Of a stretch of 64,000 nucleotides of DNA, positions 15,341 through 64,000 are shown piece after piece; position 1 is the first letter of the stretch, and each line of letters starts with the position of its first letter. The translations under genes were made by a program, and so were the position numbers. The notes under the pieces were generated by a model. The model was not told the DNA's origin and searched no databases. It worked only from the letters and a program-made list of their open reading frames with translations. Source of the stretch: Streptomyces hygroscopicus (GTDB taxonomy: Bacteria; Actinomycetota; Actinomycetes; Streptomycetales; Streptomycetaceae). The DNA lies in assembly GCA_002021875.1 (NCBI GenBank), contig CP018627.1, positions 496,001 through 560,000 on the forward strand. Reading direction: 5' to 3'.

Positions 15341-16162
15341 CTAGACGAGTTCGACGAGTCGCCACGAGCGCGGCCGTCCGCTCTTGCCGAGGGTGTTGCG
15401 GGTGCGGCAGTGGAAGGCAAGGAGGGCGATGAGTGCGGCGGCGGTGAACCAGCCGGCCTGGATGGCGAGGTACTTCGGAAGTGGCGTGCTGGAGAACCCG
15501 GCGCCGGTGGCGGCCTGCATCGCACCGTAGGAGGGCAGGTAGCGCACCACGCTGCCGTCGGAGCTGGAGCTGTAGAGGGGATTTTGCAGGGCGAGGTCGA
15601 TCACGCTGGTCATCACGATGGCGAACATGCCCTCCACTTCACGGCGCAGCAGTGAGCCGAAGGCGACGCCCAGGGCGCCATAGGTGATGCCGGCGCAAAA
15701 GAGAGCGGCGGCGAGCAGGGCGGGCTGCTCGGGTGCCCAGAAGGTGCGGGTGAGGATGGTCGCGTAGGCGGCCACGGCGGCGGAGGCCAGCGTCAAGGAG
15801 GTGAGCTTGGCCAGGACGAGATGGGTGCGGGGGTAGCCGGCCAGGGCCAGTCGGCGGTCGAAGTGGCCGCCCGCGAAAGAGGCCGCGAACATCATGAAGC
15901 CGACGATCAGGGTGACGGCGTTGAGGGCGCCGGTGATCTCGGTGAGCTGGTTGCCGTGCGGGGTGAGCAGGTCACCGGTCGCACGCAGCCGGAAGCGGGT
16001 GGGGGTGCTGGGTACGGACCAGAACGCCAGCGCGGTCCACACGGGGATGAACAGGGCGATGAGGACCATGGCGAAGCGGTTGCGCAGGTGCTCGATCAGC
16101 GCGTAGCGGGCCGCGGTCATGAAGAGGGTGCGGTTGCGGCGTACGGCTCGGGGAGGTGTCAT
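15341..16162 (-). CDS. ABC transporter permease, exporter type
   Basis: 273-residue integral membrane protein with about six hydrophobic helices (for example MVLIALFIPVWTALAFW and AVTLIVGFMMFAASFAGG) and an ABC-2-like layout with short loops. Downstream partner of an ABC ATPase; the start overlaps the ATPase stop by 4 bp (ATGA). This architecture fits small-molecule, lipid or antibiotic export. Substrate unknown; the divergent neighbour is the CrtC-like/prenyl synthase fusion, so an isoprenoid product is one possibility. Confidence 0.75.
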   Translation of the reverse strand: MTPPRAVRRNRTLFMTAARYALIEHLRNRFAMVLIALFIPVWTALAFWSVPSTPTRFRLRATGDLLTPHGNQLTEITGALNAVTLIVGFMMFAASFAGGHFDRRLALAGYPRTHLVLAKLTSLTLASAAVAAYATILTRTFWAPEQPALLAAALFCAGITYGALGVAFGSLLRREVEGMFAIVMTSVIDLALQNPLYSSSSDGSVVRYLPSYGAMQAATGAGFSSTPLPKYLAIQAGWFTAAALIALLAFHCRTRNTLGKSGRPRSWRLVELV

Positions 16163-16767
16163 GCGGTGGGCTCCGCGATCTGCCCGTGGAGACGGCCCCC
16201 GTCCAGGCGCCACAAGGTGTCGAGGCGTTCGGCGTCGTAGGCCAGGTGGGAGACCACGAGGACCGATCGGCCGTCCTCGCGCAGCCTTGTGGCCAGGTCC
16301 CAGAACCGCTGGTAGGTCTCCCAGTCGAAGCCCTGGTAGGGCTCATCCAGCAGCAGTGTCCGGGGATTGTGCATGAGGGCCAGGGTGAGGTTCAGTTTCT
16401 GCCGGGTTCCGCCGCTGAGGACTCCGGCCCGTTCGTCGGCGTACTCGCTGAACTGGAGTGCCTCCATGACCTCTTCGGCTCGCACCAGGTCACTCAGGCC
16501 GTAGGCGGCCTTGAAGTACTTCAGGTGCTGGCGGACGGTGAGCGCGTCGTTGAGGACGGCGGCCTGCGGGCAGTGACCGAAACCGCCGTAGTGGTGGACC
16601 GTGCCGCGGTCGGGGGCCAGTTCGCCTGAGAGAATCCTCAGCAGGGTCGTCTTGCCCGCGCCGTTCTCCCCCACGATTCCGGCCAGTACACCGGGGCGCA
16701 GTCGCAGGTCGACACCGCCCAGCACCGCACGTCGGCCGTAGGCGTGGTACACGCCGGTCACCTCCAT
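16159..16767 (-). CDS. ABC transporter ATP-binding protein
   Basis: 202-residue ABC ATPase, short for the family. Walker A GENGAGKTTLL (near residue 33), signature LSGGTRQK, Walker B TLLLDEP and the H-loop VVSHL are all present. Paired with the following ABC-2-type permease. Its start is 153 bp from the divergent start of the fusion gene, so the intergenic stretch 16768-16920 holds both promoters. Confidence 0.85.
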   Translation of the reverse strand: MEVTGVYHAYGRRAVLGGVDLRLRPGVLAGIVGENGAGKTTLLRILSGELAPDRGTVHHYGGFGHCPQAAVLNDALTVRQHLKYFKAAYGLSDLVRAEEVMEALQFSEYADERAGVLSGGTRQKLNLTLALMHNPRTLLLDEPYQGFDWETYQRFWDLATRLREDGRSVLVVSHLAYDAERLDTLWRLDGGRLHGQIAEPTA

Positions 16768-16920
16768 CGAGGGCCTCCTCCCCTTGGCGTTCCGCTATAA
16801 CGAGCGGGCGGCGTCGAGGGCACGGCGACGACCCGATATCCGGGCCGCGTTGTCATCCGATGAGGTGGGGCCGTTACGACAGCACCCGGTGAGCGGGGTA
16901 CGGACGTCTAGGTTTCCGGC

Positions 16921-19221
16921 ATGACCATCTCCGCGTCCCGTCCCCCGGCGCAGGGCCCTTCGCAGGCCGCACCGCAGCACACCGCCGGCTCAGCGCCCAT
17001 TGGCCTGCCGCACCCTTCGGCCGGTGCCGAAGGGTGGTATCTCAACGGGCATCTGCGGGATGAGAGCGGCGACGAGTACACGTGGATGGTCAGCGTCCTG
17101 AAACACCACGACGTACGGGACCGCGCGGCCGGTCCCGGGTACGGCGTGGTGTCCACGTGCTCGGGACCGGCAGGGGTCACCCACGGCGCCTGGCTCACGC
17201 CCACCATGCATCGCGCGGTCCGCGAGGCGCTCCGCGGCGACACCGCGCAGGATCACCGGGTCCGCGAGGCGCTGGCGGAGGCCCTCGCCGAGGGCCCGCT
17301 GCTGCCCGACCGGCTGCTGGCCGAGCCGGTGGTGGAGTCGGCCGAAACGCTGGACATGTCCTTCGGGGACGTGGCCGCGCTGCGCCGTGCGGAGGACGGC
17401 GGATACCGCCTGGCCTTCCAGGACAGGGAACGCTTCGAGCTTCTCCTCACCCCCGTCAAGGCGGCGGTCCCGCAGTTCGACGCACGTGGGCGCTATCCGG
17501 GGCGGCTTCCGACCGACGCGGACGCGATGACGTCGTACTTCGTGCCCCGGCTGCACGCCCACGGGACCCTGCGTCGTGCGGACGGCACCCAAAGACGGGT
17601 GGCGGGGCACGCCTGGTTCGAGCAGGACTGGGGCAGCACCTACTACGACGTCGAGCGGACCCCGGGAACGCCGGACCACACCTGGGAGTGGGCCGGCATC
17701 CAGCTCGGCAACGGCTGGGAGATCAGCTGCATTCACGCGCGCAACACCGATCCCGCCACGGGCGCCGCCACGCTGGAATTCACCCGCGCCACGGCGGTTG
17801 CCCCGGATGGCGGCGTCGGCTACCACGACGTGGACTGGCAGCCCGTGCGCCACTGGACCTCACTGGCCACCCTCAACACCTACCCCACCGCGGTGCGCGT
17901 GCGCGTCCCCGACCTCGGGCTGGACGTCGAGGTGATCGCTCCGGCGGCGGAGGGCGAGGTCCGTACTCTGCTCGTCGGACGCGCCTTCTGGGAGAGCCCC
18001 GCCACCGTGCGCGGCGTCATGGGAAACACGTCCGTGGCCGGCACGGCATTCCTTCAGACCCTCCCGACCAACACCATCGGCGATATCGAGCACTACATGC
18101 GCCGCACCCACGACATCGCCCGTGCGGAAGCCGCCGCGCTCTATTCCACCGATGCCGCCGACGAGACCGCGCTGGGTCTGCTCACCGGCACCAGCGGCGG
18201 AACGGACCTGGACACCGCCGCCCGGATCCGCCTCCACCAGGCGGTCGCCGCTCCCCTTCTGCACCTGCTGGACAACCCCGGACGCTCCTGGCGCCCCTAC
18301 GTGGCCGCGGCCGTCCTCTGCCTTCTCGGCGCCGACCCCGAGCCCTACCGGCCGCTGACCGCGGTCACCGAGCTGCTCCATGTCTCGGCTCTGGTCATCG
18401 ATGACATCCAGGACAACTCGCCCACCCGGCGCGGCCGTCCGAGCGTCCACGAGATCTTCGGCACCGCTCCCGCGATCACCGCGGGCACCCTCGGCTACTA
18501 CACCTTCGACGCCCTCATCCAGCGCGTCCCGCAGGCCGACCCCGCCACCATGCTGCGCATCTACCGCCTCTATCTGCGAGACCTGCGCGCCGCCCACGCC
18601 GGTCAGGCCCTCGACCTCGCCGGGCACCACACCGCATTCGACCAAGCCGTGGCAACCGGTGACGCCCGCCCCCTCCTCGACCAGATCCGCACCGCCCACC
18701 GGCTCAAGACGGGCATGCTCGTCCGCAGCACCGCCGAGGTCTCCGCGATCCTCGGCGGCGCCGACGAGACCCAACTCGACGCGATCTGCGCGTACTTCGA
18801 AGCCGTCGGAATCGCCTACCAGATCACCGACGACGTCTTCGACCTGTACGGGCAGTGCACCCCCGACGAACACCGGCAGGGCATCACCACCCGCTCCCCC
18901 GCCGAAGACCTCCGCAACGGCGAGGTCACCTACCCCGTGGCCCACGCCACCCGCCTCCTCGACACCACCGACCGCCAACGCCTGCGCGACGCCCTCCGGC
19001 AGTGCTCCGACGCCGGTGCGCTCCAGGCGTCCGACCTGCTGATGCGCAGCGGAGCCCTCGACGCGTGCATGGCCGAGGCCCGCGAACTCGTCGACAAGAC
19101 CTGGGACACCCTCGCCCCCTTGCTCCCGCCCACCCCGCACAAGGCCATGGTGCGCGCACTGGGCTGGTACGCCGCTCAACGCGAAACCGACCACATCCCG
19201 CGGGCAACAGCACTGCGATGA
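16921..19221 (+). CDS. CrtC/AttH lipocalin-like domain fused to trans-isoprenyl diphosphate synthase
   Basis: 766 residues in one frame. After a Pro/Ala-rich lead (1-36), residues about 37-395 match the CrtC/AttH lipocalin-like family (carotenoid 1,2-hydratase relatives): WYLNGHL, then GHAWFEQDWG followed by WEWAGIQLGNGWEI, then AFWESPA. Residues about 420-755 are a trans-isoprenyl diphosphate synthase: first Asp-rich motif DDIQDNS (D494, D495, D498), a KTG motif, and second Asp-rich motif DDVFD (D637, D638, D641). The usual GGKRxRP substrate motif is replaced by PGRSWRP. Ser and Ala occupy positions -5 and -4 before the first motif, which suggests a long-chain product such as GGPP. Likely role: make a prenyl diphosphate and hydrate, cyclise or hand it over in the same polypeptide (inference). 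No terpene synthase gene lies nearby in the window. Confidence 0.8.
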   Translation: MTISASRPPAQGPSQAAPQHTAGSAPIGLPHPSAGAEGWYLNGHLRDESGDEYTWMVSVLKHHDVRDRAAGPGYGVVSTCSGPAGVTHGAWLTPTMHRAVREALRGDTAQDHRVREALAEALAEGPLLPDRLLAEPVVESAETLDMSFGDVAALRRAEDGGYRLAFQDRERFELLLTPVKAAVPQFDARGRYPGRLPTDADAMTSYFVPRLHAHGTLRRADGTQRRVAGHAWFEQDWGSTYYDVERTPGTPDHTWEWAGIQLGNGWEISCIHARNTDPATGAATLEFTRATAVAPDGGVGYHDVDWQPVRHWTSLATLNTYPTAVRVRVPDLGLDVEVIAPAAEGEVRTLLVGRAFWESPATVRGVMGNTSVAGTAFLQTLPTNTIGDIEHYMRRTHDIARAEAAALYSTDAADETALGLLTGTSGGTDLDTAARIRLHQAVAAPLLHLLDNPGRSWRPYVAAAVLCLLGADPEPYRPLTAVTELLHVSALVIDDIQDNSPTRRGRPSVHEIFGTAPAITAGTLGYYTFDALIQRVPQADPATMLRIYRLYLRDLRAAHAGQALDLAGHHTAFDQAVATGDARPLLDQIRTAHRLKTGMLVRSTAEVSAILGGADETQLDAICAYFEAVGIAYQITDDVFDLYGQCTPDEHRQGITTRSPAEDLRNGEVTYPVAHATRLLDTTDRQRLRDALRQCSDAGALQASDLLMRSGALDACMAEARELVDKTWDTLAPLLPPTPHKAMVRALGWYAAQRETDHIPRATALR

Positions 19222-19442: not shown

Positions 19443-20423
19443 ATGTCAGGAGCCTGCTGCGCCCCCACATCAGGGGGCGGCCGGGAGATCCCCGAACCGT
19501 CCGCCGTGCGGCTCCAGGCCTCGGATCGGGACCGGGCGCAGGGGCTGCGCGCCATGCTTCGCATCCCCGCGGGGACGTATCTGATGGGAGGCGATGACGC
19601 CGACGCGTTTCCCGAGGACGGTGAGGGGCCGGTCCGGGCCGTGCGGCTGTCGCCGTTCCTCATCGACGCGACCGCTGTCACCAACCGGCAGTTCGCGACG
19701 TTCGTGCGCAGCAGCGGCTACCGGACCGATGCCGAGCGCTACGGCTGGTCCTTCGTGTTCTACGCACTCGTCCACCCCGACGCCCGGCATCTGGTGCGCG
19801 ACGGCACGGTGGCGCAGGCACCCTGGTGGCTCGCGGTGGACGGGGCGTGCTGGCGGGCCCCCTACGGGCCGGGGTCGTCATGGACCGATCTGTCGAACCA
19901 CCCTGTCGTCCATGTCTCCTGGCGTGACGCGTCCGCCTACGCGGCCTGGGCGGGCAAGCGCCTGCCCACGGAGGCGGAGTGGGAGATGGCGGCACGTGGC
20001 GGTCTGGAGCGCGCCCGCTACCCGTGGGGGAATGAGCTCCTGCCTCGCGGGCAGCACCGCTGCAACATCTGGCAGGGGCAGTTCCCACAGGTCAACACGG
20101 GTGAGGACGGGTATCTGGGAACCGCGCCGGTCAAGTCCTACCGGGCCAACAACCTCGGCGTGTACAACACCTCGGGCAATGTGTGGGAATGGTGCTCCGA
20201 CTGGTGGAGCACCACCTGGCACGCGGCCGACCGCCCGGAGACCCGCCAGGACCCGGCCGGACCTCCCGCCGGGGAGGCGAAGGTGATCCGCGGCGGCTCC
20301 TACCTGTGCCACGCGTCGTACTGCAACCGCTACCGCGTCGCCGCGCGCACCTCCAACACACCCGACAGCAGCACCGGGCACATGGGGTTCCGCTGCGCGG
20401 CGGACCTGCCCCCGCCACGCTGA
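19443..20423 (+). CDS. Formylglycine-generating enzyme (sulfatase-modifying factor)
   Basis: 326 residues. Copper-dependent oxidase that turns the cysteine of a CxPxR motif in type I sulfatases into C-alpha-formylglycine. The C-terminal signature is complete: SYLCHASYCNRYRVAAR with the active-site pair C289 and C294, then SSTGHMGFRC. N-terminal features such as MRIPAGxYLMGG-like (MLRIPAGTYLMGG) and KRLPTEAEWEMAARGG are also present. Start ATG 19443 follows GGAGGAG. It is cytoplasmic and acts on unfolded substrate. Its natural partner, the sulfatase directly downstream, is broken. Confidence 0.92.
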   Translation: MSGACCAPTSGGGREIPEPSAVRLQASDRDRAQGLRAMLRIPAGTYLMGGDDADAFPEDGEGPVRAVRLSPFLIDATAVTNRQFATFVRSSGYRTDAERYGWSFVFYALVHPDARHLVRDGTVAQAPWWLAVDGACWRAPYGPGSSWTDLSNHPVVHVSWRDASAYAAWAGKRLPTEAEWEMAARGGLERARYPWGNELLPRGQHRCNIWQGQFPQVNTGEDGYLGTAPVKSYRANNLGVYNTSGNVWEWCSDWWSTTWHAADRPETRQDPAGPPAGEAKVIRGGSYLCHASYCNRYRVAARTSNTPDSSTGHMGFRCAADLPPPR

Positions 20424-33034: not shown

Positions 33035-33796
33035 TCATCCGCGCTCGCGCAGGTACGCCTCCAGCTCCGCGGCCCCGGTCAGCATCGCCCGCCCGCGGGC
33101 GGACAGCCGACCGTGCCAGTCGCACAGGGCGGCCTGCAGCGGCTCCAGCCCGCCGGCCGCCCGCACCTGGGCGATCAGCGGGGCGATCTGCTCCAGCAGG
33201 TAGCCGCCGCGTCTGAGCTGGTGGGTCAGCCGGGCGTCCCGTACGGCGGCCTCGTCGTAGACGCGGTACCCGGTCAGCGGGTCGCGGCGCGGGCGCACCA
33301 GCCCGGCGCGCTCCCATTTGCGCAGCGTCGCGGGCCCGATGCCGAGCTTTTCCGCCAGCGGCCCGATGAACGTGCCGCCGGGCCCGGACACCGCGGCCGG
33401 CTCGGACCCCACACCGGACCTCACATCGGGCCCGGACGCCGTGGTGCGCTCCAGGTCGCGGAGGGCGCTCTCCACGGCCTGGAGGGTCCGGCGATCATCG
33501 AGGAGCTGGGCGTGGCTCTCGTCGATGAGGTGGAACGCCTCCTCGGCCGAGCCCTGGTTCACGGCCCGCATGATCGACGTCGCCGTCTGGTGGCCGTGGC
33601 CGGGCACCAGGGCGAGGAACGCGCTAAGGGCCGCCGCGTGCAGCGAGGTGTAGGTGCGGTAGCCGTGGGGTGTGCGACCGGCGGCCGGAAGGATGCCGGT
33701 CTCCTCGTAGTTCCTGATCGCCTGCGTGGACAGACCGTGCCCGCGCGCCAGATCAACCGGCCTGAGCCGCTCACCGCTTTGAAGGTTTCGTCCCAT
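33035..33796 (-). CDS. TioE-like transcriptional regulator with two MerR-type HTH domains
   Basis: 253 residues from ATG 33796. First MerR-type winged helix at the N-terminus (LRPVDLARGHGLSTQAIRNY, then GYRTYT), and a second one in the C-terminal half (LAEKLGIGPATLRKWERAGL, then GYRVYD). The tandem arrangement is that of the TioE family. No metal-binding Cys cluster is seen. Divergent from the erythromycin esterase-like gene with 58 bp between starts, so it probably regulates that gene. Confidence 0.82.
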   Translation of the reverse strand: MGRNLQSGERLRPVDLARGHGLSTQAIRNYEETGILPAAGRTPHGYRTYTSLHAAALSAFLALVPGHGHQTATSIMRAVNQGSAEEAFHLIDESHAQLLDDRRTLQAVESALRDLERTTASGPDVRSGVGSEPAAVSGPGGTFIGPLAEKLGIGPATLRKWERAGLVRPRRDPLTGYRVYDEAAVRDARLTHQLRRGGYLLEQIAPLIAQVRAAGGLEPLQAALCDWHGRLSARGRAMLTGAAELEAYLRERG

Positions 33797-33824
33797 GGTT
33801 CTGCCAATATCGCGGAGGAGTTTC

Positions 33825-33849
33825 AACCGAAGGTTCAACGATACCGTTG
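33825..33849. promoter_or_regulatory. Double inverted repeat in TioE-like/esterase promoter
   Basis: AACC-GAA-GGTT (33825-33835) is followed directly by CAACG-ATAC-CGTTG (33836-33849). Two adjacent palindromes fit a regulator with two DNA-binding domains. The second ends 5 bp before the esterase ATG. Confidence 0.55.
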
Positions 33850-33854
33850 AGGGC

Positions 33855-35057
33855 ATGGTTACCGACATCGAGTACACCGCCCATGGCGTCGAGGCCCCCG
33901 CCGTCATGAGGCTGCTCCCGGCCCGGCCCCGGCTGCTCGCCCTGGGCGAGCCCACCCACGGCGAGGACACTCTGCTCGACCTGCGCAACGAGCTCTTCCG
34001 GCAGCTCGTCGAGCAGGAGGGCTACCGGACGATCGCGATCGAGAGCGACTGCGTGATGGGCCTGGTCGTGGACGACTACGTCGCCTCGGGCACAGGCACG
34101 CTCGACGAGGTCATGGAGCACGGATTCAGCCACGGCTGGGGCACCTCCGCGGCCAACCGCGAACTCGTGCGCTGGATGCGCGTGTACAACGACGGCAGGC
34201 CCGCGTCCGAGCGGCTCCGCTTCGCCGGTTTCGACGGCCCGCTGGAGATCACCGGCGCCGCCAGCCCCCGGCAGGCCCTCACCGCACTCCACGGCTACCT
34301 CGCGGACCGGGTGGCCGCGGACCTGCTCCCCTGCACCGGGGAAACGCTCGACCGCCTGCTCGGCGCCGACGACCGGTGGACCCGTCCCGCCGCGATGATG
34401 GACCCGACCCAGTCCGTGGGGCAGTCGGCCGGGGCCGGGGAGTTGCGGCTGCTGGCCGACGATCTGGTGGCCCTGCTCGACACGCAGACGCCGCACCTGC
34501 TCGCGGCGACCTCGCGGGACGACTGGGACCGGGCGCACCTGTACGGGCGCACCGCCACCGGCCTGCTGCGCTTCCACTACTGGATGGCCGACACCTCACC
34601 GGCCCGCATGACCTGGCTGGTGAGCCTGCGGGACCAGATGATGGCCCACAACCTCCTCACCCTCGCGGAACAGGGCCCGGCATTGGTCCACGCCCACAAC
34701 GGCCATCTCCAGCGGGAGAAGAGCACGACGCGGATGGGCGGGATGCCGCTGGAGTGGTGGAGCGCCGGTGCGCTGGTGAGTGCCCGGCTCGGCGAGGAGT
34801 ACGCCTTCGTGGCCACGGCCCTGGGCACGATCCGGCACCAGGGAGTGGACACTCCGCCGCCGGACACCATCGAGGGACTTCTGTACGCGCTCCCGGAGGA
34901 CCGCTGCGTCATCGACGCCCCGCGGCTGGCCACCGCCCTCGGCGACACGGTGCCCACGCCTCGCGTATCCCCCTGGTTCGGCTACTCCCCGCTCGACCCG
35001 GCCCATCTGGCCGGCACTGACGGCATCGTGTTCGTCAAGGACGTCCCGCAGAGCTGA
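33855..35057 (+). CDS. Erythromycin esterase-like protein
   Basis: 400 residues of the Ere/succinoglycan-biosynthesis-like family (PF05139). The catalytic-type GEPTHGEDTLLDLRN near residue 31 has the Glu and His known to be needed in Ere enzymes, and later HAHNGHL and AIESDC motifs fit the fold. Hydrolysis of macrolide lactones is one known activity, but many family members act on other compounds. ATG 33855 is used because the double palindrome lies just before it; longer frames would cover the operators. Confidence 0.82.
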   Translation: MVTDIEYTAHGVEAPAVMRLLPARPRLLALGEPTHGEDTLLDLRNELFRQLVEQEGYRTIAIESDCVMGLVVDDYVASGTGTLDEVMEHGFSHGWGTSAANRELVRWMRVYNDGRPASERLRFAGFDGPLEITGAASPRQALTALHGYLADRVAADLLPCTGETLDRLLGADDRWTRPAAMMDPTQSVGQSAGAGELRLLADDLVALLDTQTPHLLAATSRDDWDRAHLYGRTATGLLRFHYWMADTSPARMTWLVSLRDQMMAHNLLTLAEQGPALVHAHNGHLQREKSTTRMGGMPLEWWSAGALVSARLGEEYAFVATALGTIRHQGVDTPPPDTIEGLLYALPEDRCVIDAPRLATALGDTVPTPRVSPWFGYSPLDPAHLAGTDGIVFVKDVPQS

Positions 35058-36090: not shown

Positions 36091-37047
36091 ATGGATGTGG
36101 TGAGCGACGCGATCTCTGCCGTGCACCTCGGCCACCCCTGGTCCCATCGGGTGCGGACGAGTGGGAGTTGGTGCGCACGGCTGGACCCGTACGACGGTGC
36201 GGGCTTCTACGTCGTCCTGGAGGGCAACTGCTGGCTGCTGACCGACGGCGGCACCCTGGTGCCTCTCGGCGTGGGGGACGCGGTGCTGCTGCCCCATGGC
36301 ACAGGCCATGTGATCGCCGACTCCCCCGTCGATGCGGCGGTCGCGGAGGAGAAGGCGGTGCCGTTCGAGCAATGGCTCGTGGCGGAAGGGCCGCGTGCCC
36401 GGCCTGCTCACGACGAGACGGAGATGCTCTGTGGCAAGTACTGGCTCGACTGCAGCCGCATGCACCCGCTCATGGCGGAGCTGCCCGAGGTCGTCCACCT
36501 TCCCAACCGAGTGGGCAGCCACCTCGAACTCCGTGCCGCGATCGACCTGCTCGCCGGTGAGCTGGACGAGAGCCGGCCCGGCTCCTGCGTCGCGCTGCCG
36601 AACCTGCTCGACCTCCTTCTCGTCTATATGATCCGCTCCTGGATGGCCGAGACCACCTGCGGAGTCTGGCCCGGCGCACTGGGCGACCCGGTGACGGCCT
36701 CCGCCCTGCGGGCAATGCACTCCAACCCGGCCGCGCCGTGGAGCAATGACCGCCTGGCGGCTGAGGCGGGCGTCTCCCGTCCCACCCTGGCGCGCCGGTT
36801 CACCACCCTGGTCGGCCGCCCTCCGATGACGTACCTCACATGGTGGCGCGTGATCCTTGCCGCCACCCTGCTCCGAGACACTCCGGATACCCTGGCCACC
36901 ATCGCCGGCCGAGTTGGCTACGGCAGCCCGTACGCACTCTCACACGCCTTCGAGAGGGAGTTCGGCACGACACCGGGGCGGTATCGAGCGAAGGTCGCCA
37001 AAGGGCCGTCTCATGAGCCCAACAGGGCTTCGCAGGCAGGGAGTTGA
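36091..37047 (+). CDS. AraC-family transcriptional regulator
   Basis: 318 residues. N-terminal cupin-type sensing domain (GAGFYVVLEGNCWLLT, GDAVLLPHGTGHVIAD) of the kind grouped as cupin_6, and a C-terminal AraC DNA-binding domain (LAAEAGVSRPTLARRF, then VGYGSPYALSHAFEREFG). Divergent from the MBL hydrolase with about 100 bp in between, which should hold its operator. The following AAA ATPase gene overlaps its end. Confidence 0.88.
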   Translation: MDVVSDAISAVHLGHPWSHRVRTSGSWCARLDPYDGAGFYVVLEGNCWLLTDGGTLVPLGVGDAVLLPHGTGHVIADSPVDAAVAEEKAVPFEQWLVAEGPRARPAHDETEMLCGKYWLDCSRMHPLMAELPEVVHLPNRVGSHLELRAAIDLLAGELDESRPGSCVALPNLLDLLLVYMIRSWMAETTCGVWPGALGDPVTASALRAMHSNPAAPWSNDRLAAEAGVSRPTLARRFTTLVGRPPMTYLTWWRVILAATLLRDTPDTLATIAGRVGYGSPYALSHAFEREFGTTPGRYRAKVAKGPSHEPNRASQAGS

Positions 37048-38251
37048 CTTGGACACCGCACAGGACGCGCAGGACACGGCCAAGCGGCTGCGGGCGATCG
37101 GCGACGAGCTGTCGGACCGTTTCTACGAGCGGGCCGACGTGGTGCGGACGCTGGTGGTGACGCTGCTGGCCGGGCAGCACTCGCTGGTGCTCGGCCCGCC
37201 CGGAACGGCGAAGTCCGAGATGGCCCGGGAGCTCACGGGCCGGATCGAGGGGGCGGCCTACTGGGAGATCCTGCTGTCCAAGTTCACCGCGCCGACGAGG
37301 ATGTTCGGACCCATCGACGTCGCCGCACTGGCCCGAGGTGAGTACCGCCAGGTCTACGACGGCCGCGCCACGACCGCGCATGTCGCCTTCATCGACGAGA
37401 TTTTCAAGTGCTCCACGGCGGCGCTGAACGAGACCCTGGGCTACCTCAACGAGCGGATCTACCACCCCGAGAGCGGCGGCGAGCCAATCCGCTGCCCGCT
37501 GATCGGGGCCATCACGGCGAGCAACGAACTGCCCAGCGGTGAGGATTCGGCCGCGATCTACGACCGGCTGCTGGTCCGGATCGAGGTCGGGTACCTGGAA
37601 GACCCCTCGAACTTCGCCGCACTGGTCCGCTCCGCCGTCAGCCGCCCGGCGGCACCGGACCGGACCACGGTCGAGCTGGCCGCGTTGCGGCACGCCGTGA
37701 CCGAAGCCGTCCCGGGCGTGGACGTCCCCGACGCGATCGTGGACGCGGTGTGTACGCTGCGGGCCGCCCTGCGCCGTAAGGAACTCATCGCCTCCGACCG
37801 CCGCTGGCGGCAGGCGGTGGGCCTGCTCCAGGCGTCCGCGTACCTCGGCGGCCGTCCGGCGGCCGCCGAGACCGATCTGTCGGTGCTGACGCACGTGCTG
37901 TGGGACTCCCCCGCCCAGCGTCCGACCGTCGAGCGCGAGGTGCTGCAACTGGTCAACCCCGACGCCAAGGAGGCGCTCGACCTGGCCGACGGGCTCGAGG
38001 AGCTGGAGGCCCAACTCGACGCCATGGCCGGGCAGTCCCGCGAGGCGCTGAGCGAGTGGGTCATCAAAAAGGCCCACAACAAGCTCGCCATGGCGGGGAA
38101 GCGGCTGGAGAAGCTGCGCCAGGACGCGGCGAGCGCGGGCCGCTCCACCGCCGCCATCGACCGGGTCAGCGGCCGCCAGCGCGCCGTTCGCGCCCGCGTA
38201 CTCACCGAGGCGCTCGGCGTGGACGCGAGCACGGTGCAGGCCCAGCTCTGA
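37013..38251 (+). CDS. MoxR/RavA-type AAA+ ATPase
   Basis: 412 residues. Walker A LGPPGTAKSEMA, Walker B VAFIDEIFKC, sensor-type ITASNELP and an arginine-rich finger region. C-terminal part carries a helical extension (residues about 300-412) as in RavA. Start ATG 37013 has AAAGGG 7 bp upstream and overlaps the AraC gene; TTG 37049 with GCAGGGAG upstream is a serious alternative. Followed after 19 bp by a VWA-domain gene, the usual MoxR partner, for metal insertion or complex remodelling. Confidence 0.88.
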   Translation: MSPTGLRRQGVDLDTAQDAQDTAKRLRAIGDELSDRFYERADVVRTLVVTLLAGQHSLVLGPPGTAKSEMARELTGRIEGAAYWEILLSKFTAPTRMFGPIDVAALARGEYRQVYDGRATTAHVAFIDEIFKCSTAALNETLGYLNERIYHPESGGEPIRCPLIGAITASNELPSGEDSAAIYDRLLVRIEVGYLEDPSNFAALVRSAVSRPAAPDRTTVELAALRHAVTEAVPGVDVPDAIVDAVCTLRAALRRKELIASDRRWRQAVGLLQASAYLGGRPAAAETDLSVLTHVLWDSPAQRPTVEREVLQLVNPDAKEALDLADGLEELEAQLDAMAGQSREALSEWVIKKAHNKLAMAGKRLEKLRQDAASAGRSTAAIDRVSGRQRAVRARVLTEALGVDASTVQAQL

Positions 38252-38270
38252 ACACCGGGGGATCAGGACC

Positions 38271-39899
38271 ATGGGCGAGCCACCGGGCCGGACACCGGGT
38301 CGGCTCGACGAGCTGGCGAGCCGGGCCGGGAAGTGGCTGGGCCGGTCCGCCGCCGCTCCCGAGCGGCACACGGCGGCCGTGGTCGCGGACCGGTTCGACC
38401 GGATCACCTGGCGCGACACCTACGAGCAGTCCGCCGGACTGCGCGATGTGGCCGCGGAGCTGAACGAGCGTTACCGCTACACCACCGACCTCCTGACCGA
38501 CGTGTTCCTGGCGGCCTACAAGGTCGGCCCGCGGTTGCGCGAGCGCGCGGAGATGGACCCCTCCCGGCTGGTCAACCACCAGGTCATCACCTCGCTGGTG
38601 GAGTCACTGGAGTTCGCCGAGCTGCGCCGGGAGACGGCCGGAGACCCCTACGCCGCCGCCATGGCCGTGCTCGCCCAGGCCGCCGCGCTGCGCGGGATGC
38701 TGGAGCGCTCCCGGTCGGCCCAGGAGCGGGCCGAGCGGGCGAAGCAGGCCCAGCAGGACGCCGAAGGCGCGGCGGACGCCGTGGGCGAGGCGCTCCAGCA
38801 GGCCGCCGACGAGGCGGACTGGTCCAACGGGGTCGGGGCCCCGGCCGCCGACGCCGTACAACAGGCGATCGAGGCCGCCGAGACCGCCGACGCCGCTGCG
38901 CGACAGGCCGCCCAGGACGCCGCGCAGGCCCTGGCGGCGGCTCCCGGCATCCGTGCCGCCGCGCGGAACGCGGCGGCGAAGGCCGCCCGGGCGGTGCGGG
39001 AGGAGGCCGCGCTGATGCGGGCATGGGGCGTTGGCTCCGGCGAGCTGGAGCGGATGCCGTTCGACCAGCGCGCCCGGCTCGCCGAGCGGCTGCGCAGCGG
39101 CCGTCTCGCACGGTGGGCCGAGCTGATCGGTCGCTTCCGGCAGATGGCCGGCGGTGAGCGCGCCCGCAAGGTGGAGAACGCCACCGGCGAGCTGGTCGGC
39201 GTCACGCTCGGCGATGACCTCTCCCGCGTCATCCCCTCCGAGCTGGCCAACCTCGGCCTGCCCGAGCTGCGTGCGGTGTTCGCCGCGCGCTACGCCGCCG
39301 GGGAGCTGATGCTCTACGACAGCCAGGGAGAGCAGGCCACCGGCCAGGGCGCCATCATCGCGTGCGTGGACACCTCGCACTCCATGTACGAGGCGGGGCC
39401 CGGCGGCGTCACCCGGGAGGCGTGGGCCAAGGCGTGCGCCCTGGCGCTGCTGGATCAGGCCCGCCATGCGGGGCGTGACTTCGTCGGCGTCCTGTTCTCC
39501 GCCGCCGACAAGATCAAGGTCTTCCGCTTTCCGTCCGGCCGGCCCGCCGGCATCGCCCGGATTCTCGACTTCGCGGAGACCTTCCTCGGCGGCGGCACCA
39601 GCTACCAGGCGCCACTGACAGCGGCCCGCGAACTGCTGGAGGAGGAGTTCAACGACACCGCCCGCACGCGCGGCGACATCGTGATGATCACCGATGACGA
39701 ATGCGGCGTCACCGAGGAATGGATGCGCGGCTGGAACGACGCCAAACACCAGTTGGGCTTCCGGGTCTTCGGCGTGGCCATCGGCGCCCCGCGCGCCGCC
39801 GAAACCGGCTCGGTCCTGGAGGCCCTGTGCGACAACCTCCGCTCCATCGAGGACCTCACCGACGTCCACGCGGCCGCCGACCTCTTCCGTGTGATCTGA
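38271..39899 (+). CDS. VWA-domain protein (ViaA-like), MoxR partner
   Basis: 542 residues. A long Ala/Glu/Gln-rich helical region (about 140-250, with ERAERAKQAQQDAEGAADAV and similar) likely forms a coiled coil. The C-terminal von Willebrand A domain has the MIDAS DTSHSM near residue 367 and later motifs GGTSYQAPL and ITDDECG. Expected to bring substrates to the MoxR ring. No transmembrane helix, so cytoplasmic. Confidence 0.85.
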   Translation: MGEPPGRTPGRLDELASRAGKWLGRSAAAPERHTAAVVADRFDRITWRDTYEQSAGLRDVAAELNERYRYTTDLLTDVFLAAYKVGPRLRERAEMDPSRLVNHQVITSLVESLEFAELRRETAGDPYAAAMAVLAQAAALRGMLERSRSAQERAERAKQAQQDAEGAADAVGEALQQAADEADWSNGVGAPAADAVQQAIEAAETADAAARQAAQDAAQALAAAPGIRAAARNAAAKAARAVREEAALMRAWGVGSGELERMPFDQRARLAERLRSGRLARWAELIGRFRQMAGGERARKVENATGELVGVTLGDDLSRVIPSELANLGLPELRAVFAARYAAGELMLYDSQGEQATGQGAIIACVDTSHSMYEAGPGGVTREAWAKACALALLDQARHAGRDFVGVLFSAADKIKVFRFPSGRPAGIARILDFAETFLGGGTSYQAPLTAARELLEEEFNDTARTRGDIVMITDDECGVTEEWMRGWNDAKHQLGFRVFGVAIGAPRAAETGSVLEALCDNLRSIEDLTDVHAAADLFRVI

Positions 39900-59102: not shown

Positions 59103-60884
59103 GTGATCGTACTCGGTTACAACGGATTCAGCAGAGGTGCGGAACTTTTCGGGCGTCTCTACGGGGCAACTGGTGTCGGCCGTAATCTCTTGGTGGGGCA
59201 CGACGCCGCGGCGGCTCTGGTGATCGACGGCGAGTTGGTTGCGGCGGTCGAGGAGGAGCGGCTGAGCCGGGTCAAGAAGACCTCCGATTTTCCGGCGGAC
59301 GCAATCACGTGGTGTCTGAACTCGGCTGGCGTCGACATCGACCAGGTGGATGTTTTCGCTTTCCCCTGGCGGTTTTCGCCGACCGTGGCCGAGCAGATGA
59401 TTTCGGAGATATGCGACTCCGACATGCCGGTCACGGCCAAGTTCGACGCTCTGCGCAGCACGGGTGAGCTCTACACCGACATGCTCGGCCGGGACGCGGT
59501 GTACAACGACTTCGTCCAGCGCACCGGGCACGAGCTGGATCCCAACAAGCTCACCCTGGTGCCCCATCATCTGGCCCATCTCATGTGCGGCGCCTACCTG
59601 GCCGGCGGGGGCGACGCCGCCTTCCTGGTGAGCGACGGCCGGGCGGAGACCCTGTCCGCCGTCATGGGCGAGCTGCGGAACGGTGTGGTCCGCCTGTTCG
59701 ACGAGAGCGCGGTCCCCATGACCAGCTCGCTCGGGGTGGCGTTCGGGAGGATCACCCGCTACCTGGGGTTCGTACCGAACAACGACGAGTACAAGGTGAT
59801 GGGCTTGGCCGCGTACGGCCCGCCGCCGCACCACAATCCGCTGCTCGAACGCGTGGTGCGGCTGCACGAGAACGGCTCGTACACCATCTCCATCCCTCGG
59901 GACATTGGGGCCTACTATGCGCTGTTCGACAGCCTGTTCGGCGGTGACAGCGAGAAGCGCGAGCAGTTCGACTTCCGTGTGAAGGTCGCAGGGCTGGCAC
60001 AGCACATGGTCGAGGCCATCACCGCTCATCAGCTGCGGACGCTGACCGCGGCCTCCAGCCTGGACACCCTGCTCTTCGAGGGCGGTCTGGCGCTCAACTG
60101 CGTGGCCAATACGAAGATGCTGGAGAGGTCGCCGTTCACCGGTATGGAGGTCAGCTTCGGGGCCAGCGACCCGGGGGTAGCCATGGGCGCGGCCGTGTAC
60201 GCCGCCGGTCTCAGGAACCGGCCCGCCGACGCGGTCACCACCCCCTACCTGGGGCCTTCGTACGACGAGAGGCAGGTCCTGGACACCCTCGCGGAGTACG
60301 CGGACCGCGTCGAGTGGCAGGAGGAGCCCGACGCTGCTTCGGTCGCCGACAGGACGGCGGAGCTGCTGGCCGGGAAGAACGTCGTGGGCTGGTTCCAGGG
60401 CCGGGCGGAGTTCGGACCGCGTGCCCTGGGTAACCGCAGCATCCTCGCCAATCCATCCTTCCCCGACATCAAGGACATCATCAATCTCCGGGTGAAACAC
60501 CGGGAGCCCTTCCGCCCGTTCGCGCCGGTCATCCTCGAATCCGAGGCCCCGCGCGTCTTCGAGATGGGCAAGAAGACCTCGTCCCCCTATATGACCTTCG
60601 TCTTCCCGGTGCGGAAGGAGTACCAGGAGCGGATCCCCGGCGCCTGTCACGTGGACGGCACGGCACGGGCCCAGACGGTGAACGAGCGGCAGAACCCCGC
60701 GCTCGCTCGGCTGTTGCACGCGTTCACCGCGCGGACGGATGTGCCCTGCCTCCTCAACACCTCGTTCAACGTGGCCGGTGAGCCCATCGTCTGCTCGCCG
60801 CGGGACGCGTTGGAGTGCTTCCTCGCCACCGAAATCGACTACCTGGTCATCGACCGGTTCGTGGTCACCAAGAAGGAGAGCTGA
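59103..60884 (+). CDS. O-carbamoyltransferase (NodU/TobZ/CmcH family)
   Basis: 593 residues from GTG 59103. Transfers a carbamoyl group from carbamoyl phosphate, via carbamoyl-adenylate, to a hydroxyl of a natural product. Family motifs: N-terminal GHDAAAALV, VPHHLAHLMCGAY with the metal-type H155, H156, H160, DEYKVMGLAAYG, and the C-terminal GRAEFGPRALGNRS and REPFRPFAP. The length matches TobZ (about 570 residues). No acceptor-specific features can be read. It is a hallmark of specialised-metabolite clusters and the strongest evidence for one here. Confidence 0.92.
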   Translation: MIVLGYNGFSRGAELFGRLYGATGVGRNLLVGHDAAAALVIDGELVAAVEEERLSRVKKTSDFPADAITWCLNSAGVDIDQVDVFAFPWRFSPTVAEQMISEICDSDMPVTAKFDALRSTGELYTDMLGRDAVYNDFVQRTGHELDPNKLTLVPHHLAHLMCGAYLAGGGDAAFLVSDGRAETLSAVMGELRNGVVRLFDESAVPMTSSLGVAFGRITRYLGFVPNNDEYKVMGLAAYGPPPHHNPLLERVVRLHENGSYTISIPRDIGAYYALFDSLFGGDSEKREQFDFRVKVAGLAQHMVEAITAHQLRTLTAASSLDTLLFEGGLALNCVANTKMLERSPFTGMEVSFGASDPGVAMGAAVYAAGLRNRPADAVTTPYLGPSYDERQVLDTLAEYADRVEWQEEPDAASVADRTAELLAGKNVVGWFQGRAEFGPRALGNRSILANPSFPDIKDIINLRVKHREPFRPFAPVILESEAPRVFEMGKKTSSPYMTFVFPVRKEYQERIPGACHVDGTARAQTVNERQNPALARLLHAFTARTDVPCLLNTSFNVAGEPIVCSPRDALECFLATEIDYLVIDRFVVTKKES

Positions 60885-60889
60885 GCGGC

Positions 60890-60920
60890 CGGCCCGCGGG
60901 ACATCCCCTCCCGCGGGCCG
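60890..60920. terminator. Bidirectional stem-loop terminator
   Basis: CGGCCCGCGGGA pairs with TCCCGCGGGCCG over a 7-base loop, 5 bp after the carbamoyltransferase stop and before the convergent cupin gene. Confidence 0.75.
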
Positions 60921-60937
60921 ACCACCCCTCACGCTGT

Positions 60938-61366
60938 TCAGAGCTGAATGGGCTCGTTCGGTCCACCCTTTGTCTCGATGGTCAGGAACGACAGAACCTC
61001 ATCGCCGATATTCTTCAGGTCATGAAGGTGGTATCGCCCATCGGGGCAGCAAAAATGCCGAGACTGTCCTCGGACATAGGAGATCTCGTGAGTGGTGCCA
61101 TCGCTTGAGTGCTGGCGGGCCCGGCCGCTTGTGAGCGCTATCCAGAAGTAGTCCAGCACATGCCGATGGACGGGGATCCGCTCTCCCGGCTGGAGAGAGG
61201 TCTCCCAGATGCGCAGCGAATCGGTCTCCTTCACCAGCGACTGGCCGATCCAGCCGTTATGGGCGTTGTTGTCGAATTCCTTCCGCAGCTCCGGACTCCA
61301 GCGAGCAAAGGCTTCGGCGACTACGGTGCTCGACAGGGTGAGACCGGAGCGGGATTCATTACCCAC
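60938..61366 (-). CDS. Cupin-domain protein
   Basis: 142 residues from GTG 61366, with AAAGGAT 8 bp upstream. Cupin motif 1 contains PGERIPVHRHVLDYFWIA and motif 2 has the late His in RYHLHDLKN. An unusual FCCPDG Cys pair lies between. Possible roles are dioxygenase, isomerase or binding protein for the cluster product. Last gene of the minus-strand operon with the epimerase and the fused aminotransferase. Confidence 0.75.
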   Translation of the reverse strand: MGNESRSGLTLSSTVVAEAFARWSPELRKEFDNNAHNGWIGQSLVKETDSLRIWETSLQPGERIPVHRHVLDYFWIALTSGRARQHSSDGTTHEISYVRGQSRHFCCPDGRYHLHDLKNIGDEVLSFLTIETKGGPNEPIQL

Positions 61367-61397
61367 GAATCGGATCCTTTCGGCTGATCGATGTGGC

Positions 61398-63365
61398 TCA
61401 TACGGCGGAGGAGAGTGCGTCGAGCAGGGCGGTGTTCGCACGCCGATCGCCGATGGTGATGCGGCAGGTGTCCGGGATCGCGCGCCCGGTGTCGGCGACG
61501 ACTATCCCCGCGTCCCGAAGCTGCTCCATGACGCGTTCGTGCTTGTGCAGTCTGACGAACAGGAAGTTGGTCTCCGAGGGGAACACCCGGTCCACCGCCG
61601 GGTGTTCGGCGAGCGCCGAGGCCATCCGGTCACGCTCGGCGCGGATGCGCTGAATGCCGTCGAGCACCGGCCGCGAGTTGGTCAGCCGATCCCGCACGGC
61701 GTGCTGGGAGGCATTGGTGAACCCGAAGGGCACCTGCACCCGCCGCAGCGCTTCGACGATGCCGGGCTGGGCCAGGGCGATTCCGCACCGCGCGGCGGCG
61801 AGGCCCCACGCCTTGGAGAGTGTCCTGAGCACGATGAGGTTGTCGTGTTCTTCGACCAGCCCGGCGTACGAGGGCTTCTCGCTGAACTCGACATAGGCTT
61901 CGTCGATCACCACCAGCCCGCGGCCCCCGACCAGCAGGTCGTGTACCTGCTCCGGATCGAGCCTGGTCCCCACGGGGTTGTTGGGATCGCACAGGATGGT
62001 CACCCGTGGATCGGCCGCGAGGATGCGCTCGGTGTCGAGCCGGGACAGGTCGTCACCGCACAGCGGCACTTCGACCACGGGCAGGCGCAGGAGGTGGGCG
62101 AAGTGGGCATAGAGCGGAAAGGTGGGCGGCGTGACGCAGACGCGCTCGCCGGGTGACGCCAGCGCCGCCAGGAGCAGCATGACGCCGTCGACCGCGCCGC
62201 TGGTGAAGAGCAGGTGATCCGCGCTCAGCGCATCGACCCCGTCGTGGCCGGGCAGCGTCGAGATCGTGGTGAGGTAGGTGTCGGCCAGCTCTGCCGTATC
62301 GAGGTGGGGATACTCGGCCGCGGCGCCCAGGAACGGACTGGTGTTGCTGGACAGGTCGATCGTGTCGAACCGCGGCACCTGGCGAAAACGGGCCGGGCCC
62401 GGGACCGGTACGCCCGTGACGGGGAGAGCCGCGAACTCCGACACCGCCTGCTCCGCTCCCTCGGCCGCCGGGGCCGCGAGGCCAGGGGCCCGCAGCCAGT
62501 GGTCGAGGGGGACGAACAGATCGGCTCCGAGCGGGCGCATGCGGTGGGCATCCCCCCGGCCGAGGTGGACCCACTCCAGGCCGGAGCGCCGGGCGTGGCG
62601 GTACAGCTCGTACAAGGTCGCGACGTGGAGGTTGTGCCGCGCGGCGGGATCGTCGTGGTCAATGGCCTGGGTGAGGTAGTAGAGCCCCCGGCCGTTGTGG
62701 GATGTGGTGATGAGTCCGGCCTGGACGACGGTCTTCTCGCTACGGCGCACGAGCATCTCCGTGCGGTCCGCCAATGAGCCGTGTGCGAGGGCGTCGAGGG
62801 CGTCGGCGTTGTACAGGTTGTCCTGACCGCCGTGGCGCTCCGTCCGGCGCCGGTGGAGTTCCACGAAGGCGTCTTTCGCCCAGGGGTTCCCGTCGAGCTC
62901 GGTCAGCGGGATCCGCTCCCAGGTGACGTCACAGGAGAGCGCGTGGTGGTGGCGGCGCAGATCGTGCAGTTGCCCGGCACCGACGCGGGCCCGCAGGACC
63001 TCGTCCACCTCACCGGGCAACCGGACGACACACTCGCTCTCGGTGGCGAGGGGCACGAGACCTGCCGCCCGCAGCGCGCCGGTGTCGTCACTGCGGCGCA
63101 CATTCGGCACGAGGATCTGGGCCACGTTCAGCTCATCGGCGCGGCGGGCCAGCTCATCGAGGGTGTGGGGGGCTGGGACGGGGCTGGTCGGGTGGTACGG
63201 GGACCCGCCGCCCACCAGGGTGGGGCGCTCGAGCACGGCGGGGTCCAGGGCGGCGAACGCGTCGGCGTCCCGGCCTAGTTGGGCCAGGGAGCACACCGGC
63301 TCGCGAGACCCGAGGGCAGCGGACAGCACCTGCTGAAGCGCGTCGATATCTGCGGACCTGCGCAT
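61398..63365 (-). CDS. GNAT-fold (FemAB/BioF2-like) and HisC-type aminotransferase fusion
   Basis: 655 residues. The N-terminal half (about 60-300) has the FemAB/BioF2-like GNAT layout: VGAGQLHDLRRHHHA, then GLYYLTQAIDHDD and SGLEWVHLGRGD; these transfer acyl or aminoacyl groups to amines. From about 315 on it is a histidinol-phosphate-type class I/II aminotransferase with CDPNNPVGT, VVIDEAYVEF and TLSKAWG, where K518 forms the PLP Schiff base. C-terminal NFLFVRL and RITIGD complete the fold. ATG 63365 with GGAG 7 bp before is chosen; a longer frame exists upstream. Coupled to the upstream epimerase and downstream cupin genes. Likely two successive steps in one protein. Confidence 0.85.
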   Translation of the reverse strand: MRRSADIDALQQVLSAALGSREPVCSLAQLGRDADAFAALDPAVLERPTLVGGGSPYHPTSPVPAPHTLDELARRADELNVAQILVPNVRRSDDTGALRAAGLVPLATESECVVRLPGEVDEVLRARVGAGQLHDLRRHHHALSCDVTWERIPLTELDGNPWAKDAFVELHRRRTERHGGQDNLYNADALDALAHGSLADRTEMLVRRSEKTVVQAGLITTSHNGRGLYYLTQAIDHDDPAARHNLHVATLYELYRHARRSGLEWVHLGRGDAHRMRPLGADLFVPLDHWLRAPGLAAPAAEGAEQAVSEFAALPVTGVPVPGPARFRQVPRFDTIDLSSNTSPFLGAAAEYPHLDTAELADTYLTTISTLPGHDGVDALSADHLLFTSGAVDGVMLLLAALASPGERVCVTPPTFPLYAHFAHLLRLPVVEVPLCGDDLSRLDTERILAADPRVTILCDPNNPVGTRLDPEQVHDLLVGGRGLVVIDEAYVEFSEKPSYAGLVEEHDNLIVLRTLSKAWGLAAARCGIALAQPGIVEALRRVQVPFGFTNASQHAVRDRLTNSRPVLDGIQRIRAERDRMASALAEHPAVDRVFPSETNFLFVRLHKHERVMEQLRDAGIVVADTGRAIPDTCRITIGDRRANTALLDALSSAV

Positions 63366-63387
63366 ACTCGTTCTCCACTCCTCTTCG

Positions 63388-64000
63388 TCACTGAGATGTC
63401 TCGGCTCCGTGCGCATCGATGTAGTCGTCGACGCGGTCGCGGTACTCCTCGAACAAGTCGGCCACGGTGCGGGCGATACCGGTCTTCCAGCCGACGGAGC
63501 AGTCCCCGATCAGGTCGCGGCGGACGCCGTGGTCGAAGGTGGCCGTTTCCCGGCTGTAGTCGCCGCGGTCCAGTTGGACCGGCACTCCGGTGAACGCGGA
63601 CATGTACTCCAGCAGATCGGTCATGCCGACCGCCTCGTCACCGCCCCAGTTCACGACCCGCGCGGGCGCCTGCGCCACGTCCCACAACAGCGGTACCTGA
63701 CGGACGACGTCATCGGTGTGCAGCAGGTCGCAGTAGTTCTGCCCCTCGCGGGGCACCGCGCAGGGCTGCCCCTTGCGCATCTGGTTGAAGAGGATCATGG
63801 GCACACCGCCGTGGCCGTACGGGCCGTAGGCGATGTTGAGGCGGGCTATCACGGTCGGCAGAGCGAGTGCTTCGGACAGACCGCGCGCCACTCCTTCGGC
63901 GGTGATCTTGGCGACGGGGTACGTCGGCAGCCACGGCGCCGCCCCGCCCAGCGGATCGCTCTCCCGGTACCGATGGGTCCGATCGGCTCGGTTGTAGACC
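63388..64000 (-). CDS. NAD-dependent epimerase/dehydratase-family protein (partial)
   Basis: 204 codons are present up to the end of the window; the gene continues beyond it, so its Rossmann N-terminus is not seen. The extended SDR pattern is clear: YPVAK with the catalytic Tyr and Lys, IARLNIAYGPYGHGG, then DLLHTDDVVRQ. Typical of sugar-nucleotide epimerases/dehydratases, which would provide a modified sugar or cyclitol for the cluster. First visible gene of the operon that continues with the GNAT-aminotransferase fusion, 22 bp downstream. Confidence 0.85.
   Translation of the reverse strand, partial: VYNRADRTHRYRESDPLGGAAPWLPTYPVAKITAEGVARGLSEALALPTVIARLNIAYGPYGHGGVPMILFNQMRKGQPCAVPREGQNYCDLLHTDDVVRQVPLLWDVAQAPARVVNWGGDEAVGMTDLLEYMSAFTGVPVQLDRGDYSRETATFDHGVRRDLIGDCSVGWKTGIARTVADLFEEYRDRVDDYIDAHGAETSQ

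Follow-up and report, generated by a model that had tools for sequence, protein, structure and literature searches.

The described systems closest to the protein considered here include enzymes built on the AttH/CrtC barrel and proteins that join a terpene-processing domain to a prenyl synthase. In the carotenoid hydratase CrtC, the residues His239, Trp241, Tyr266 and Asp268 are all essential (PMC4717167), and an excerpt of a further study records that the enzyme converts some geranylgeraniol (PMC6013536). Kievitone hydratase, which is treated in a passage of PMC5805349 and whose fold is common to the barrel described below, hydrates the double bond of a prenyl group. Chimeric terpene synthases of known type are given as restricted to fungi in an excerpt of PMC8307374. 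Here we describe a gene in a 64,000-nucleotide stretch of the Streptomyces hygroscopicus genome (contig CP018627.1, positions 496,001 to 560,000; the whole stretch is referred to as the window) that encodes an AttH/CrtC double barrel and a prenyl synthetase in one protein. The fusion represents a large, widespread and apparently uncharacterised family, both halves of which belong to known enzyme families. Our favoured reading, with a probability of roughly 0.45, is that the protein unites two active sites in one self-contained isoprenoid enzyme, and that the prenyl diphosphate formed by the C-terminal domain would be processed by the barrel; the figure stays at this level because a carrier role of the barrel, or another reaction, competes with it.

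One gene for two domains

The gene is a single open reading frame (ORF) of 766 codons running from ATG to stop on the forward strand, and its GC content by codon position (0.73/0.53/0.89) is typical of coding DNA in the window. The protein matches three Pfam families above their curated cut-offs, i.e. CrtC (PF07143, residues 37-239, 38.6 bits vs 22.5), Lipocalin_9 (PF17186, residues 253-379, 54.2 vs 26.2) and polyprenyl_synt (PF00348, residues 440-695, 148.4 vs 27), and no other Pfam family was found in it at E<=0.1. This confirms the sequence-only reading made earlier, which had described a CrtC/lipocalin-like part followed by a complete synthase with Asp-rich motifs at residues 494-498 and 637-641; these read DDIQD and DDVFD, respectively. 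AlphaFold2, run on an alignment of 58 fusion members (alignment A2, with 28 actinobacterial and 30 non-actinobacterial rows and identities to the window protein down to 26 %), returned a confident two-domain model (mean predicted local distance difference test score, pLDDT, 90.3; predicted template modelling score, pTM, 0.90), in which a double barrel is combined with an all-helical prenyl synthase. In the 12.0 Mb host genome there are 11 prenyl synthetase matches, while the only Lipocalin_9 match is the gene itself. Its parts are as follows:

16921..19221, +, AttH/CrtC-prenyl synthetase fusion, 766 aa (ORF, Pfam, homologues, AlphaFold2)
16921..17004, +, N-terminal tail, residues 1-28, mostly disordered (pLDDT <50 for residues 1-20)
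17005..17655, +, first AttH/CrtC barrel, residues 29-245, with PF07143 at 37-239 (Pfam, fold)
17620..17622, +, Glu234, at the position of the CrtC catalytic Asp268 (alignment)
17656..18075, +, second barrel, residues 246-385, with PF17186 at 253-379 (Pfam, AlphaFold2)
17683..17691, +, Trp255-x-Trp257, at the position of CrtC Trp283/Trp285 (alignment)
18076..18225, +, linker, residues 386-435 (58 aligned members)
18226..19191, +, prenyl synthetase domain, residues 436-757
18283..18285, +, Arg455, replacing the Lys of GGKxxRP (alignment)
18400..18414, +, first Asp-rich motif DDIQD, residues 494-498 (sequence, alignment)
18829..18843, +, second Asp-rich motif DDVFD, residues 637-641 (sequence, alignment)

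A widespread family

When protein sequences were searched with the window protein, 37 matched at E<=1e-3, one of them the protein itself, and named organisms among them were Streptomyces in every case. CrtC, Lipocalin_9 and polyprenyl_synt occurred together in 33 of the 37, so that the fusion does not look like a chance event; in one relative (P0038, 38 %) both barrel halves score below the Pfam cut-offs. With one myxobacterial member as the query, 1,460 proteins were found at E<=1e-3 among 7,996 candidates, and all 120 of the matches listed carried the three domains. Database names of the relatives are generic, e.g. "polyprenyl synthetase family protein".

Relatives found in a patterned scan of a genome collection numbered 403; the best 80 loci (denoted by L numbers) were kept, i.e. 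41 actinobacterial and 39 non-actinobacterial. The actinobacterial hosts comprise Streptomyces, Nonomuraea, Nocardiopsis, Saccharopolyspora, Lentzea and others, and the remaining hosts Myxococcales and further deltaproteobacterial assemblies, Legionella quateirensis, Telluribacter, a Chitinophaga assembly, Cyanosarcina, Thermoplasmata and Schekmanbacteria. The matching frame was retained by ORF picking in 72 of the 80 loci and lost in eight; a single ORF covers query residues <=60 to >=748 in 67 of these 72, the five others being L022, L034, L071, L081 and L088. This rules out two separate genes or an assembly artefact, the first of which the sequence-only reading had named among its possible refutations. 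The statement in that reading that no characterised enzyme of this layout was known holds in so far as no description of an AttH/CrtC-prenyl synthase fusion was found in the open-licence literature searched (titles, abstract starts and passages), but the layout is not unusual, being that of a large family.

In a sample of the genus, 11 of 199 genomes matched, i.e. six over the full length, one in the second half only and four in the synthase only, so that the gene is rare there; in a sample of the phylum at E<=1e-60, the window's own genome was the single match among 396. Streptomyces sp. uw30 carries two fusion copies on separate contigs (L016 and L017), and two genomes of the genus sample are also two-copy. 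No match at E<=0.001 with aligned columns covering both domains was found in a viral library. An uncharacterized Catovirus protein of 342 aa (BFVD A0A1V0SB04) matches the model at E 1.2e-9, presumably through the barrel.

Coupling and ancestry of the domains

The segment corresponding to the linker measures 45-51 residues across the 58 members of A2, and exactly 50 in 44 of them; since its length is near-constant, the two domains look rigidly coupled. Distances in the barrel and in the synthase are correlated at r=0.94, with none of 999 permutations as high, much of which would come from shared ancestry alone. Our conclusions on selection rest on three close pairs, i.e. the window with L010, L012 and L015, for which the ratio of non-synonymous to synonymous substitution rates (dN/dS) was 0.15-0.18 in the first barrel, 0.04-0.30 in the second barrel, 0.08-0.12 in the synthase and 0.43-1.7 in the N-terminal tail (residues 1-28). 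Therefore, neither domain looks freely drifting. Distant pairs (window-L013, window-L016 and L013-L016) gave 0.15-0.70 in the domains and 0.49-0.76 in the linker by an experimental method that is near saturation here. Mean identity within groups was 0.37-0.52 for the barrel vs 0.56-0.68 for the synthase.

In the phylogenetic tree of the synthase domain, a branch with support of 89/68 sets off the 58 fusions, which adjoin four standalone synthases (96/90); together these 62 are split from a CrtE and seven other synthases of the same genome (100/100). Because the branch of the fusions reaches only 89/68 and the outgroups are long-branched, a single origin of the fusions is, as judged from this tree, likely rather than proven. 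The four standalone synthases (L088, L094, L095 and L096) are barrel-less members of the sister clade in Streptomyces; an ABC pair lies near L088 and an ABC ATPase match at L096, and a tblastn search found no barrel gene beside any of the four.

The AttH/CrtC barrel

Among solved structures, the barrel is nearest to AttH, kievitone hydratase, decalin pericyclases and 25-phosphosteroid lyase, with AttH and kievitone hydratase at least 5 Z units above folds of the pericyclase or epoxide-rearranging kind. The kinship with CrtC/lipocalin-type enzymes that had been read from the sequence is thus borne out by the fold. When mapped by motif and spacing, the CrtC residues His239, Trp241, Tyr266 and Asp268 correspond to Ala202, Thr204, Trp232 and Glu234 of the window protein, and the replacements of His239, Trp241 and Asp268 rule out a true CrtC. 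A carboxylate (Glu234) and both Trp (255 and 257) are retained. All 39 non-actinobacterial loci have Asp at the position of the CrtC acid together with both Trp, and among the 41 actinobacterial loci Asp or Glu is found at this position in 31 and both Trp in 22.

The prenyl synthase domain

The first Asp-rich motif, RRG, His510, Gln562, Asp565, Lys596 and Gln634 are kept in 58/58 rows of A2, and among the loci the first motif deviates only in L022 and L081, both frame-broken. The second motif is DDxxN in all 30 non-actinobacterial rows, as in all 39 non-actinobacterial loci, and DDxxD in 26 of the 28 actinobacterial rows; in L020 and L021 it reads DDxxG. The Lys of GGKxxRP binds isopentenyl diphosphate (IPP) and is common in the PF00348 family, lying outside its Pfam definition. 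It is replaced by Arg455 in the window protein and by Arg in 13/13 rows of the Streptomyces group, and is present in 39/39 non-actinobacterial loci and in the synthases of the same genome. This Arg weakens the case for ordinary elongation, not that for homology to trans-prenyl synthetases. At a later position the window protein has Glu668, where 21 of the 30 non-actinobacterial rows have Lys.

Small residues at positions -5 and -4 before the first Asp-rich motif do not block chain growth past C15-C20. In A2 these positions are mostly small (Ser/Ala or Gly/Ser), while some actinobacterial rows carry Asn, Cys or, in one case, Tyr, and because the window protein has no bulky residue at -4 or -5 we would guess at a product of C20 or longer. 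The solved folds listed for the domain are prenyl synthases. A polyprenyl transferase of the kind carried as cargo by family 2 encapsulins was also considered and is ruled out by its score (NF041169, 123.5 vs a cut-off of 450 bits).

Exporters and other neighbours

An ABC exporter pair divergent to the fusion, as had been noted from the sequence, is present:

16159..16767, -, ATPase of the ABC exporter (closest to DrrA, though under the cut-off)
15341..16162, -, partner permease, 273 aa, overlapping the ATPase gene by ATGA (ABC2_membrane_3, also under the cut-off)
16768..16920, no strand, divergent intergenic region between exporter and fusion

Among the 41 actinobacterial loci, a related ATPase and permease pair occurs in 20, an MMPL-family transporter in 11, both in none and neither in 10, in a tally made with the proteins of the window and of eight of these loci as queries, which includes self-matches and misses unrelated exporters elsewhere. 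L009, with a permease match of 27 aa, and L014, with an ATPase match of 60 aa, count as having neither, and weak ATPase matches of 32 % identity without a permease at L042 and L044 were left uncounted; the ATPase match of L010 spans just 107 aa, and flanks are short at e.g. L012, L035, L036 and L038. The ABC pair is divergent and upstream in 10 Streptomyces loci, with the ATPase match starting 153-235 bp from the fusion in nine of them, and downstream on the same strand in nine loci, with ATPase matches starting 3-111 bp away; the 20th pair is that of the standalone L088. Three MMPL proteins have ActII or MmpL3 as their nearest families, with HpnN further down, all below cut-off. Exporters of the DrrA, ActII, MmpL3 and HpnN kinds move drugs or lipids.

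Outside the actinobacteria, 78 of 121 neighbours were scanned, those left out being most BLAST-group members and some others. Three BLAST groups recur in assemblies of myxobacterial or deltaproteobacterial type, i.e. proteins of ~203 aa (12 loci), 599 aa (nine loci) and 642 aa (eight loci), and Pfam gave no match for one example each of the 203-aa and 599-aa groups or for the first member of the 642-aa group (set A3). One of the 78 neighbours matches HMG-CoA reductase. An FkbM methyltransferase and a UDP-glycosyltransferase (L072:12117-14392) stand beside the cyanobacterial fusion, and a family 2 glycosyltransferase (L065:8715-9818) beside a Thermoplasmata fusion; since glycosyltransferase genes adjoin the fusion in these two hosts, its product might be glycosylated there.

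Downstream of the fusion in the window, the FGE-sulfatase-fold gene at 19443-20423 was considered as a third partner and rejected, as in the Streptomyces maps a 326-aa frame stands there only in L009. Its protein is below the NCBIfam cut-offs, with GldK, SenA and EgtB nearest, and no sulfatase was found among the window ORFs scanned. Further away, the window holds an Erythromycin-esterase family protein (33795-35057) and a MoxR-type AAA ATPase (bpMoxR, of the MoxR-vWA-beta-propeller ternary system family) followed on the same strand by a VWA-domain protein (36857-39899). At 59103-63416 there are a carbamoyltransferase and, on the other strand, a single ORF with matches to a GNAT-type acetyltransferase as well as to an aminotransferase; a natural-product cluster may have its border here.

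What the fusion may do

Under the favoured reading of a self-contained enzyme with two active sites, the C-terminal domain would extend an allylic diphosphate with IPP, giving a prenyl diphosphate of at least C20. The barrel would then accept this product and work on its tail (omega) end. We propose this end because the fold relatives CrtC and kievitone hydratase act at the isoprenoid tail end, as 25-phosphosteroid lyase probably does, and because isoprenoid groups are what the partner domain makes. Position 234 may then provide the acid that protonates the terminal C=C, followed either by addition of water, as in CrtC and kievitone hydratase, or by attack of an inner double bond, i.e. cyclisation; in actinobacteria the product would exit via the adjacent ABC pair or MMPL transporter.

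Several observations weigh against this. The acid of the window protein is Glu and not Asp, and the essential His239 and Trp241 of CrtC are not kept. Neither Asp nor Glu is found at the acid position in 10 of the 41 actinobacterial loci (Q in four, R in four, A in one and a gap in one), which include the frame-broken L022 and the barrel-less L088 and in which the alignment of eroded copies is unsure. The W-x-D and WxW residues do not single out a hydratase, because AttH 2ich, the reaction of which is unknown, shares them. Arg455 and Glu668 could weaken IPP binding. In addition, the exporter may be linked to just the synthase, because barrel-less relatives exist and one of them (L088) has an ABC pair, and outside the actinobacteria no neighbour family occurs in more than three of the 78 scanned (25 of 110 families shown). 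Taken together, the Glu acid, the absence of His and Trp, the erosion of the barrel in actinobacteria and Arg455 leave room for other functions in this branch, either that of a non-catalytic carrier or a different reaction.

Possible, albeit somewhat unlikely, is therefore a synthase with a carrier domain, the barrel being no longer catalytic in this branch, if it ever was, and binding the lipophilic product so as to set chain length, oligomer state or the hand-off to the exporter. The erosion of the acid and the Trp residues in many actinobacterial relatives would fit, as would the lower identity of the barrel within groups and the sister-clade synthases that do without a barrel, one of them next to an ABC pair. 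However, both barrels are under purifying selection in the three close pairs, the acid and both Trp are intact in every non-actinobacterial locus, and the window protein keeps Glu and both Trp.

It is tempting to speculate, in an extension that we consider unlikely, that the fusion is a bacterial and archaeal chimeric terpene synthase, the barrel of which starts a protonation-driven, class II-like cyclisation of the prenyl diphosphate from the C-terminal domain, giving a cyclic or hydrated C20-C30 terpenoid that actinobacteria export. If so, a single gene would turn IPP and dimethylallyl diphosphate into a terpenoid.

We have little confidence in the barrel being a pericyclase or epoxide-rearranging enzyme for another substrate, like Fsa2/CghA or PenF/AsqC: although decalin pericyclases share the fold, AttH and kievitone hydratase are clearly nearer, and no recurring polyketide or peptide partner is seen among the listed families (30 window ORFs and 78 non-actinobacterial neighbours). 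Improbable, too, is a C-terminal terpene synthase that uses the prenyl-synthase fold for ionisation and cyclisation with no elongation. Isoprenyl diphosphate synthase-like terpene synthases are reported in fungi in an excerpt of PMC7484799, and the Arg at the IPP-binding Lys and the variable later Lys of the Streptomyces group would agree with such an activity, but the first Asp-rich motif, RRG, His510, Gln562, Lys596 and Gln634 are invariant in A2, Lys455 is universal in the non-actinobacterial loci and the listed solved folds are prenyl synthases. A CrtC-CrtE fusion serving a carotenoid cluster is most improbable, for although a Roseobacter photosynthesis cluster has crtC and a prenyl synthetase gene 1.6 kb apart, no carotenoid gene was found among the 30 window ORFs scanned or, at other loci, among the neighbour families shown (25 of 110), the synthase domain and CrtE fall apart in the tree (on long branches), and the His and Trp of CrtC are absent.

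Should the barrel indeed work on the product of its own synthase, as we favour, terpenoid biosynthesis would gain a tail-end chemistry on a lipocalin fold, encoded by single genes that lend themselves to tests in a heterologous host. The Asp-type members, for which no exporter was found with the actinobacterial queries, and the mostly Glu-type and mostly exporter-linked actinobacterial members amount to a natural experiment on the role of the barrel acid.

Comparison with known systems

For the C-terminal domain, archaeal-type geranylgeranyl diphosphate and short-chain synthases (PDB 1wy0; IdsA_Meth) share the fold and the Asp-rich motifs but lack a barrel, and the window protein, with Arg for Lys, scores far below the NCBIfam IdsA_Meth cut-off (100.9 vs 468 bits). 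For the barrel, the best structural and profile match is the AttH-like NE1406 (PDB 2ich), which has the same double-barrel fold, W-x-D and WxW, without a fused synthase. Kievitone hydratase (PDB 7a0q/7a0t) shares the barrel fold and aligned WYD..WG and WxW residues, but is fungal, predominantly secreted and free of a synthase domain, with Asp where the window protein has Glu. CrtC matches by PF07143 and aligns at the acid position and the two Trp; it differs in its His239, Trp241 and Asp268, and in that no carotenoid gene is among the neighbours scanned. The 25-phosphosteroid lyase (PDB 9g4c, 9g2i and 9fzn) is a chain of ~360 residues and thus too short for an added synthase domain. In the fungal chimeric terpene synthases (PTTS), the terpene-processing domain precedes the prenyl synthase. 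This leading domain is of the terpene synthase type, which the window protein does not have, but according to an excerpt of PMC8307374 the PTTS likewise hold a terpene-processing and a prenyl synthase domain in one protein.
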